A DNA stretch of 64,000 bases from Immundisolibacter cernigliae (lineage in GTDB: Bacteria; Pseudomonadota; Gammaproteobacteria; Immundisolibacterales; Immundisolibacteraceae), in assembly GCF_001697225.1 (NCBI RefSeq), contig NZ_CP014671.1, positions 2,418,001-2,482,000 on the forward strand. The letters are read 5' to 3'. Below, one piece after another: positions 60,301-63,979 of the stretch. The notes beneath the pieces were generated by a model, which had not been told where the DNA came from, did no database searches, and saw nothing but the letters and a program-made list of their open reading frames with translations. Positions within the stretch are counted from its first letter, which is position 1. Every line of letters starts with the position of its first letter. A program made the position numbers and the translations under genes.

Positions 60301-60885
60301 GTGGCGGCCCGCGTTCTCGCTGCTGCGTTTTTTGTCCTCGTCTGCGCCGCCGTACGGGCCGAACTGACCGGCCTGCGTGGCGCCGATCACATCAGAATGA
60401 CCGTGCCGGACCTGGCCCAGGCGGAGGCCTTCTTCAGCCGCGTGCTGGGCTGCGAAACGCTGGCCCGAAACGGCCCGCTCAGTTCAAGCGACGACTGGCT
60501 GGAGAAACACGTCGGCGTCGATGCACGCTCCCAGATTCGCGCCATGGCCATGCTGCGCTGCGGCGCTGGCGCCAACCTCGAGCTGTTCGAATGGTCGGCG
60601 CCGGACCAGGACCGCCGCCAGCCGCGCAACAGCGACTACGCCGGCCATCACCTGTCGTTTTATGTCGACGACATTCAGGCTGCGGCCGACTGGCTGCGCA
60701 AAAACGGCGTGGACACCTACGACGGGCCGTTCACTACCCAGGACGGTGACTACGGCGGGCAGTGGGTGCTGTATTTCCGCACGCCCTGGGGCGCGCACCT
60801 GGAGCTGGTGTCGTACCCGAATGGCTTGGGCTACGAGCGCAAGGGCCCGCAACGGCTGTGGGATCCGCGCACGGCCAGGCCCTAG
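60301..60885 (+). CDS. VOC-superfamily (glyoxalase/dioxygenase-fold) protein with signal peptide
   Basis: A 194-residue protein from the GTG at 60301, 2 bp after the GST gene. Residues 1-20 (AARVLAAAFFVLVCAAVRA) look like a Sec signal, so it is probably periplasmic. One VOC domain follows (about 25-180) with GADHIRMTVPDLAQAEAFFS, YAGHHLSFYVDDIQAAADWL and WGAHLELVSYPNG, containing the metal ligands expected (His, His, Glu). A longer frame upstream overlaps the GST gene and is a shadow. The substrate is unknown. Convergent with the cupin gene, overlapping 4 bp. Confidence 0.85.
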   Translation: MAARVLAAAFFVLVCAAVRAELTGLRGADHIRMTVPDLAQAEAFFSRVLGCETLARNGPLSSSDDWLEKHVGVDARSQIRAMAMLRCGAGANLELFEWSAPDQDRRQPRNSDYAGHHLSFYVDDIQAAADWLRKNGVDTYDGPFTTQDGDYGGQWVLYFRTPWGAHLELVSYPNGLGYERKGPQRLWDPRTARP

Positions 60886-61418
60886 CCGCTCAGGCGTGCG
60901 GTGTATTCCAGCACCCGCTCGAAGGCGTAGTCCTGCTCGGCGCCGCTGTCCGGATCCCACAGGCTGCGCCCGGGGCGAGCCATCAGGTCGCCGCCGTAGA
61001 CATGCAGGCCCCCGTTGAGGGTGGCCAGCGGATTGGCCACGGCGTGGATCAGCTCCGGGTCCATGATGAACACGTCGCCGGGGCGCAGGCTGCGCAGGCC
61101 GTCATCGATCAGGCCGTGCGCGCCGCGCCGGTACAGGTGGTTGTCCTCCTGCCCGGCGTAGATGCCGATCACGCCCCACATGCGGTGGTTGTGGACCGGG
61201 CTGCGGCTGCCCGGCGCGCTGATGACGTGCGCCACGGTCAGGCTGTCGGAGCGAAACAGCGGCACCACGCCGGGCTTGTCTGCGCCGCGTGCGAAGGCGT
61301 CCACCAGCGCCTGCGGGTCGCGCAGGGCATCTGCCAGCAGCGCGGCGATGGCGGCGGCCGGATCGGCACTGTGCAGGGCAGTCCGGCAATCGGCGACGAA
61401 ACGGTTCGGTTCGAACAT
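60882..61418 (-). CDS. Cysteine-dioxygenase-like cupin metalloprotein
   Basis: A 178-residue cupin of the cysteine dioxygenase-like group (predicted metal-dependent enzyme of the double-stranded beta-helix fold). The first cupin motif is SPVHNHRMWGVIGIYAGQED (His-x-His and Glu), and the second is GDVFIMDPELIHAVANP. The ATG at 61418 sits behind GGAGGA; an ATG 21 codons further upstream lies within the MITE-like element and is not preferred. It may oxidise a thiol compound. Its promoter region contains the repeat element at 61436-61588. Confidence 0.85.
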   Translation of the reverse strand: MFEPNRFVADCRTALHSADPAAAIAALLADALRDPQALVDAFARGADKPGVVPLFRSDSLTVAHVISAPGSRSPVHNHRMWGVIGIYAGQEDNHLYRRGAHGLIDDGLRSLRPGDVFIMDPELIHAVANPLATLNGGLHVYGGDLMARPGRSLWDPDSGAEQDYAFERVLEYTARLSG

Positions 61419-61435
61419 GGCTTCCTCCTCGTTTT

Positions 61436-61588
61436 GGGAAACGCTGAATAAATCCATCCTGGATTTCTCAGCGTCCGCCATCGGAAAAGCGTGGTTTTCC
61501 GATGGCTCACAAAATCAGCGGCTTAACGCTGCTGATTTTGGCAGCGCGTCCCTGCGCTGCGGGAAACGCTGGATAAATCAGCGTTTCC
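61436..61588. mobile_element. MITE-like/REP-like 153-bp element with terminal inverted repeats and five hairpins
   Basis: Ends are inverted copies: GGAAACGCTGAATAAATC at the left and, reading the other strand, GGAAACGCTGATTTATCC at the right. The left-end 19-mer (61436-61454) also recurs directly at 61561-61579 with one mismatch. Inside are five consecutive hairpins: 61441-61474, 61477-61506 (12-bp perfect), 61510-61540, 61541-61560 (7-bp) and 61562-61588 (10-bp perfect). It has no coding capacity and is AT-rich compared with its surroundings. It lies in the divergent region between the cupin and PBP1b genes. Confidence 0.7.
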
Positions 61589-61678
61589 TTTGCAAGCCGC
61601 GGTCGGTGGGCGGCGCGGTCGGGCCGGGGCGGCACGCTAGACTAGTACGTTAAACCTGCCGCCGATACTGCACTGCCC

Positions 61679-63979
61679 ATGCCCAAACCGCGCCCACGTC
61701 CTGCCATCCGCCGCCGCTGGCTCGGATGGCTGCTGCCGCTTGCGTTGGCGGGTCTGGCGGGTTTGGCGCTGTACGCGGTGCATCTGGACCGGGTCATTCG
61801 CGAGAAATTCGAGGGCCAGCGCTGGGCGCTGCCGGCGCGCGTGTTCGCCCGGCCGCTGGAGCTGTATGCCGGCGTGCCGCTCGACCCGCCGCGGGTGGTC
61901 GAGGCGCTCGATCGCCTGGGCTATCAGCGCGGTGAACCGACCGGTGTCGGCAGCTATGCCGTGCGCGGCAATCAACTGATCGTCTACACGCGCGGCTTTC
62001 AGTTCTGGGACGGCCCGGAGCCGCCGCGCAAGGTGGAAATCCGCTTCGATGGCCGGCAGATCGCCGGCCTGTATGGCGATGAGGGTGAGCTGCCGCTGCT
62101 GCGCCTGGAGCCGGAATTCATCGGCGGTTTCTATCCGGCCAGCAACGAGGACCGGCTGCTGGTGCGCCTGCCGGAGGTGCCGCCGGCACTGATGCAGGCC
62201 CTGCTGACGCTGGAGGATCGGGACTTCTACAGCCACCGCGGTGTGTCGGCGCGTGCCATCGCGCGCGCCCTGTGGGCGGATGTGCGGGCCGGGGCGGTGG
62301 TGCAGGGCGGCAGCACGCTGACCCAGCAACTGGTCAAGAACTACTTCCTGACCGCCGACCGCACCGTGTGGCGCAAGCTCACCGAGGCCATCATGGCGGT
62401 GCTGCTGGAAACCCACTACAGCAAGGACGACATTCTGGAGTCCTACCTGAACGAGGTGTTCCTGGGTCAGGTCGGCGGGCGCGGCGTGCACGGCGTGGCG
62501 CAGGGCGCGATGCTCTACTTCGGCCGCCCGCTGGGCGAACTGGATACCGGCCAGCTGGCGCTGCTGGCCGGCATGGTGCAGGCGCCGTCCCACTACGACC
62601 CGCGCCGTCACCCCGAGCGCGCCACGGCGCGGCGCAACCTTGCCCTGCGCCTGCTGGGCGAGCAGGGTCAGTTGACGCCCGAGCAGGTCGCCGCCGAGCA
62701 GGCCAAGCCGCTGCGGGTGGTCAAGCGCAGTTCCCTCACGATGGCCCGCTATCCGGCCTTCCTGGACCTGGTGCGGCGCCAGTTGCAACGCGACTACCCG
62801 GAACAGGTGCTGCGCAACGACGGCCTGCGCATCTTCGCCACCATGGATCCGGCGGTGCAGGTGGCGGCCGAGGCGGCAGTCACCGAACAGGGTGGCGCGC
62901 TCGCCAAGCAGCGCAAGCTGCCCGATCTGCAGATGGCCGCCGTGGCGGCGGACATCGCCACCGGCGAGGTGCTGGCGCTGGTCGGCGACCGCGACCCGCG
63001 GTTCGACGGCTACAACCGGGCGTTGGACGCCCAGCGCCAGATCGGCTCACTGGCCAAGCCGGCGGTGTACCTGACCGCGCTGGGGCAGCCGGAGCGCTTC
63101 AATCTGGCCACGCGCCTGGACGACCGGCGCATGTCGGTGCGTCTGCCGAGCGGCCAGAGCTGGCAACCACGCAATTCCGGTGACGACTATGCGGGCGACG
63201 TGTCCCTGCTGCGTGGACTCGCCGAGTCGCGCAACAGCGCCACGGTGGCGCTCGGCCTGCAGGTCGGTCTGCCAAGCGTGCTCAAGACCCTGCGGTCGCT
63301 GGGCGTGACGCGCGACTTGCCCGAAGTGCCGGCCGTGATGCTGGGCGCAGTCGAGCTGACTCCGTTCGAAGTCACGCGCATGTACCTGACGCTCGCCGCC
63401 GGCGGTTTTCGGCTGCATCTGCGCGGCATCCACGCCGTGACCGACAAGGACGGCAAGCCGCTTGCCAGCTACCCGCTGTCGGTGGAGCAGAAACTCGATC
63501 CGGCGGCGGTGTTTCTGGTCAACACGGCTCTGCAGGAAGTGGCCCGCAATGGCACCGCGCGGGCGTTGGGGCGCGTGCTGCCGGGCCTGAACGTGGCCGG
63601 CAAGACCGGCACCACCAACGACAGCCGCGACTCCTGGTTTGCCGGCTTCACCGGCAACACCGTGGCCGCCGTGTGGGTAGGCCTGGACGACAATGGCCAG
63701 ACCGGCCTGTACGGCGCCAGCGGCGCCATGCGCATCTGGACCGACCTGATCGGTCGCCTGCCGGCGGTGCCACTGACTCTGGCCGAGCCGCCCGGCATTC
63801 GCTGGGTGCAGGCACCCAATGGCCCCTGGCTGCCGGCGGCGCAGTGTCCGGGCGGCTTTGGCATGCCGGTGCTGGACGGCGGTGCGCCGTCCGGGTCCGC
63901 GCCCTGCGACGGCGCCGCCATTTCACCTCCGCAAGACAAGGACGACGACTCATGGCGCTGGCTGCGCAAGCTGTTCTGA
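61679..63979 (+). CDS. mrcB: Penicillin-binding protein 1B, bifunctional transglycosylase/transpeptidase
   Basis: Polymerises and crosslinks peptidoglycan. The 766-residue protein has a basic cytoplasmic tail, a membrane anchor (about 17-37), a UB2H-like region (about 60-140, PBP1b-specific), a GT51 transglycosylase domain with EDRDFYSHRGV (near 179) and QGGSTLTQQLVKNYF, and a transpeptidase domain with SxxK at Ser457 (GSLAK), SRN at 517 and KTGT at 642. All catalytic motifs are intact. It ends 21 bp before the window edge. Its upstream region contains the MITE-like element. Confidence 0.96.
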   Translation: MPKPRPRPAIRRRWLGWLLPLALAGLAGLALYAVHLDRVIREKFEGQRWALPARVFARPLELYAGVPLDPPRVVEALDRLGYQRGEPTGVGSYAVRGNQLIVYTRGFQFWDGPEPPRKVEIRFDGRQIAGLYGDEGELPLLRLEPEFIGGFYPASNEDRLLVRLPEVPPALMQALLTLEDRDFYSHRGVSARAIARALWADVRAGAVVQGGSTLTQQLVKNYFLTADRTVWRKLTEAIMAVLLETHYSKDDILESYLNEVFLGQVGGRGVHGVAQGAMLYFGRPLGELDTGQLALLAGMVQAPSHYDPRRHPERATARRNLALRLLGEQGQLTPEQVAAEQAKPLRVVKRSSLTMARYPAFLDLVRRQLQRDYPEQVLRNDGLRIFATMDPAVQVAAEAAVTEQGGALAKQRKLPDLQMAAVAADIATGEVLALVGDRDPRFDGYNRALDAQRQIGSLAKPAVYLTALGQPERFNLATRLDDRRMSVRLPSGQSWQPRNSGDDYAGDVSLLRGLAESRNSATVALGLQVGLPSVLKTLRSLGVTRDLPEVPAVMLGAVELTPFEVTRMYLTLAAGGFRLHLRGIHAVTDKDGKPLASYPLSVEQKLDPAAVFLVNTALQEVARNGTARALGRVLPGLNVAGKTGTTNDSRDSWFAGFTGNTVAAVWVGLDDNGQTGLYGASGAMRIWTDLIGRLPAVPLTLAEPPGIRWVQAPNGPWLPAAQCPGGFGMPVLDGGAPSGSAPCDGAAISPPQDKDDDSWRWLRKLF

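Follow-up and report, generated by a model that had tools for sequence, protein, structure and literature searches.

The window, a 64,000-nt stretch of the Immundisolibacter cernigliae chromosome, contains a divergent spacer between a minus-strand cupin-like gene and a plus-strand PBP1b gene, and this spacer holds a short, hairpin-rich element. The first-pass annotation had placed a 153-bp element at 61436-61588, between cupin and PBP1b genes. The element is real, but its limits are 61437-61588 (152 bp), one base shorter than first noted. Of its neighbors, PBP1b matched TIGR02071 (840.6 bits), while the cupin-like gene matched nothing in Pfam or NCBIfam and carries only the name first given to it. 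The features of the locus, with the evidence for each, are:

60882-61418, minus strand: cupin-like gene, start codon 18 bp from the element
61433-61436, no strand: left target-site duplication TTTG (single TTTG in the empty site of congener G001)
61437-61588, plus strand: probable five-hairpin MITE, 152 bp (repeats, genomic copies, empty site, covariance model)
61437-61447, plus strand: left terminal inverted repeat GGAAACGCTGA (11/11 with the IS ends)
61442-61473, plus strand: hairpin 1, CATCC-TG loop (fold, covariation, loop conservation)
61477-61506, plus strand: hairpin 2, 12-bp stem, GCGTGG loop (inverted repeat, covariation)
61510-61540, plus strand: hairpin 3 (covariation)
61541-61560, plus strand: hairpin 4, loop motif as in hairpin 1 (covariation, loop conservation)
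61562-61588, plus strand: hairpin 5, including the right terminal repeat (inverted and direct repeats, covariation)
61578-61588, minus strand: right terminal inverted repeat (inverted-repeat match, comparison with IS ends)
61589-61592, no strand: right target-site duplication TTTG (single TTTG in the G001 empty site)
61679-63979, plus strand: PBP1b gene, start codon 90 bp from the element

The left boundary was fixed by comparison with a congener, G001, in which the same cupin/PBP1b spacer lacks the element and carries a single TTTG. The G001 spacer reads CCTCCTCGCTTTGCAAGCCGC, whereas the window reads CCTCCTCGTTTTG, then 152 bp, then TTTGCAAGCCGC, and the flanks are 92-96% identical. This comparison identifies the congener's spacer as an empty site and the window copy as an insertion with a 4-bp TTTG duplication; it also assigns the G at 61436 to the duplication rather than to the element, which therefore begins at 61437. 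The copy in the window would thus have entered a TTTG between the two genes after divergence from this congener. The element has GGAA..TTCC ends and a terminal inverted repeat, GGAAACGCTGA/TCAGCGTTTCC, that matches at 11/11 positions (61437-61447 versus 61578-61588). Its left end is also repeated directly, at 18/19 positions (61436-61454 versus 61561-61579), in hairpin 5. With a GC content of ~53%, it stands well below the surrounding region (~70%), and it has no coding capacity, the listed ORFs across it being frame overlaps from the neighboring genes. The inverted ends, direct repeat, low GC and absence of coding sequence all agree with the initial description.

The I. cernigliae genome (one contig, 3.24 Mb) contains ~13 near-full copies of the element at 87-95% identity, plus many fragments, bearing out the earlier suggestion that it is a multicopy sequence. 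Once joined across the insertion, the flanks of seven of the 11 other near-full copies align continuously with G001. An eighth site is occupied in both genomes (L013 in I. cernigliae; L155 in G001, at G001:C6:101670-101815) but continuous in G002, indicating that this insertion predates the split of the two congeners. Precise excision in G001 is formally possible as the cause of one empty site, though less so at eight sites. Across many genomes, perfect 4-bp duplications bordered 73 of 117 copies with flanks, compared with 3/351 shifted controls; the target was YTAR in 52 of those 73, although the TTTG of the window copy is not. The position of the element in a divergent spacer would also suit a conserved regulatory region local to the cupin and PBP1b genes. 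However, the sequence is neither single-copy nor kept in place among relatives: it is missing here in G001 although the flanks are 92-96% identical, and many copies lie elsewhere in the genome. We consider this explanation refuted for this site, with a negligible chance of being correct.

A search of the host genome with the end sequence recovered both ends of a 1220-bp unit present in 12 copies. These copies are at least 99.9% identical, and each is bordered by a perfect 4-bp duplication (CTAA, CTAG, TTAG, TTAA or ATAA), of YTAR form in 11/12 and ATAA in one. A 4-bp, YTAR-type target duplication characterizes the IS5 subgroup. The encoded transposase is of the DDE type: it matches the IS5 family model NF033581 of NCBIfam (325.7 bits, cut-off 140) and contains the Pfam domains DDE_Tnp_1 (PF01609) and DUF772 (PF05598). 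The outer 16 bp of the right end of the MITE (61573-61588) are identical to the left end of the IS (16/16), and 11/11 bp match at the left end of the MITE, while the two interiors have no similarity. The common ends and the 4-bp, mostly YTAR, duplications make this IS the likely source of transposase for the MITE in the I. cernigliae genome, and the MITE is presumably mobilized in trans by an IS5-family transposase. Within this genome, the IS copies appear to be more recent than those of the MITE. Two head-to-tail tandem IS dimers, with one 4-bp target between, occur at G000:C1:1083308-1085750 and 3108546-3110989.

The proposal that the element is MITE-like, with a related transposase gene and target-site duplications to be sought, is upheld by these data. 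The element is short, non-coding and multicopy, has terminal inverted repeats, a target-site duplication and an empty site, and resembles an autonomous element only at its ends. The type II MITEs of a review (PMC10969869) are likewise short, non-coding and intergenic, with terminal inverted repeats, short target duplications and IS similarity at the ends only. We regard it as very probably a non-autonomous type II MITE, inserted at 4-bp targets by an IS5-family DDE transposase that recognizes the shared ends. Such an enzyme would bind the common terminal repeats and insert the MITE at 4-bp, mostly YTAR, targets, duplicating the target in the process. In this reading, the body of the MITE is no deletion derivative of the IS; it is an old five-hairpin module with an inheritance of its own, retaining its shape while its sequence changes. 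In other MITE-bearing genomes, IS elements carry a local version of the ends (for example GGAACCTCTGATTAAT in G308), and the two tend to occur together, 15 of 36 genomes with the IS also having the MITE (Fisher p = 0.0012, uncorrected for relatedness). Searched with the I. cernigliae IS at E <= 1e-40, 58 of the 73 genomes that carry the MITE gave no IS5 match, suggesting either that other transposases serve there or that the copies are relics. No MITE lay beside the IS5 copies of named relatives (0/80 loci).

Comparison with described systems sets the element apart from each. It shares ends and 4-bp targets with IS5-family insertion sequences but carries no gene, and nothing in its interior resembles theirs. 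ERIC (RU-1) elements are similar in size, highly base-paired and found in several genera (PMC2229807), but they have TA at their ends, a 7-bp terminal repeat and one long stem-loop, whereas the present element has GGAA at its ends, duplicates 4 bp of its target and forms five hairpins in a row; identity with ERIC was rejected on the basis of the ends. QMITE2 of Coxiella burnetii is also gammaproteobacterial, 150-190 bp long and strongly folded (PMC5896051). Its 7-11-nt duplications, 23-29-bp terminal repeats and GTAG REP core differ, and the 4-bp duplications of our element rejected this identity. The REP/REPIN palindromes moved by RAYT transposases (PMC2817692, PMC3116915) are likewise intergenic and present in many copies. 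The alternative first raised, a REP-type element, is not supported: the element lacks a GTAG-type REP end, and has terminal inverted repeats, DDE-type target duplications and an empty site, with REP-like palindromes present only as separate sequences nested in some copies. No Rfam entry corresponds to the element (best 21.6 bits against a threshold of 50), and searches by terms or end sequence found no published description in the openly licensed literature.

The nested sequences are a REP-like inverted pair, TGTGGGAGCGCAGC...GGGCTCCCACA, situated exactly in the hairpin 2 loop of at least five copies in the I. cernigliae genome (L010, L014, L018, L021, L024). A REP-like pair also lies in or up to hairpin 3 in L025, L028, L029 and, in G001, L165. 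Such composite MITE and REP elements may spread as a unit. The I. cernigliae genome contains four Y1_Tnp (RAYT-like) genes (L224-L227), three of them above the Pfam cut-off, whose products might mobilize the nested REP sequences.

Folding of the window copy gives five adjacent hairpins with a free energy of -89.8 kcal/mol, compared with -46.6 +/- 3.9 kcal/mol for dinucleotide shuffles (z = -11), in agreement with the five stacked hairpins first proposed, and the opposite strand is equally stable (z = -10.7). In 22 of 369 gammaproteobacterial genomes, BLAST recovered full-length relatives at 68-75% identity, which form the same five hairpins from stems that differ in sequence. Seventeen of these relatives served to build a covariance model, and this matched 73 of the 369 sampled gammaproteobacterial genomes (species), in 53 of 272 genera. 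In a phylum sample, it matched 46/398 genomes, mostly from one family of another class, and these matches were confirmed to be full-length. BLAST found no copy in the sister genus (0/4 genomes), and plasmids and phages gave no blastn match. Two copies (L237 in G025 and L249 in G218) are fused to a following copy in tandem and share an end with it, the left end of the second copy standing in place of the right end of the first.

The paired bases co-vary across this range. In a set of 56 copies, one per locus with one exception, 54 of 55 base pairs showed compensatory double changes, 95% of cells could pair, and covariation was 0.589, compared with 0.151 in shuffled alignments; this alignment was fitted to the covariance model and leans toward its own structure. 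A BLAST-found set aligned with MAFFT is free of that tendency: 32 of the 55 pairs had double changes, covariation was 0.431 versus 0.155, and 95.9% of cells paired, far above shuffles and slid partners. Related sequences are not independent, and the counts of double changes are not numbers of events. Within the genus alone, covariation was weak (4 pairs) and became decisive only in the cross-family set. The order, number and total length of the hairpins were kept across two classes, down to 33% pairwise identity. So were short motifs in the loops: hairpins 1 and 4 share CATCC, and hairpin 2 has GTG.

The usual view of bacterial MITEs is that they arise by deletion from a local IS and do not last long. 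The architecture described here appears in about one-fifth of the sampled gammaproteobacterial species and in another class, with compensatory change in the DNA apparently preserving its pairs, and such wide spread with co-changing paired bases is unusual among such elements. The MITE families in the review are mostly named after a genus or family, and a five-hairpin architecture with compensatory change in 53/272 gammaproteobacterial genera and another class is unlike them (PMC10969869). The covariance model provides a means to annotate these elements.

The types of mismatch suggest the level at which pairing is maintained. G.T and A.C mismatches were about equally rare (80 versus 102; 58 versus 71, p = 0.29), also in the unfitted alignment (30 versus 28), while individual helices departed from balance in both directions. 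Eleven tRNAs contained 14 G.U and no A.C, a weak control since the tRNA finder permits only G.U. Based on this equal rarity, pairing seems to be maintained as DNA rather than as a one-strand RNA. An RNA role for the hairpins, as a small RNA, mRNA stabilizer, RNase III or E target, or terminator, would be consistent with the very stable fold on both strands and with the RNA-level action reported for Correia and ERIC elements in Neisseria and Yersinia (PMC10969869, PMC2229807). However, RNA tolerates G.U but not A.C, and the element has no orientation bias relative to flanking genes, no Rfam family at threshold and no promoter-like site found in or near it. RNA-level function is thus disfavored by the mismatch counts, and we consider it improbable. 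The hairpins may instead function at the DNA level, as cruciforms or within single-stranded intermediates of replication.

Alternatively, the pairing may have no function. Template switching between hairpin arms during replication, a process described for hairpins (PMC8794818), repairs imperfect palindromes and makes double changes in one step; the rarity of unpaired intermediates and the equal G.T and A.C counts both fit such repair. This explanation is a credible one that falls short of probable: pure template switching would be expected to invert or scramble the loops and not to preserve hairpin number, while both classes keep the CATCC and GTG loops, the order and number of hairpins, and the total length. 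The conserved loops and architecture favor at least some selection on the DNA hairpins and hint that the five hairpins themselves matter. We tentatively propose that the element belongs to a distinct mobile lineage, in which DNA hairpins with fixed loops are recognized by a transposase, replication or nucleoid protein, the architecture is inherited across classes of Pseudomonadota, and the element borrows whichever IS5-family enzyme fits its ends. The family makes it testable whether hairpin DNA is functional in the life cycle of a DDE transposon or is maintained by template switching.

At the locus itself, insertion may have displaced a cupin promoter in the old spacer ~156 bp upstream and added the hairpins to the cupin leader, and could affect expression of both the cupin-like and PBP1b genes; a search in and near the element found no promoter-like site. 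On the minus strand (61419-61481), an upstream ATG within the MITE is in frame with the cupin-like ORF and extends it by 21 codons, and automatic annotation may place the start of this gene inside the element.
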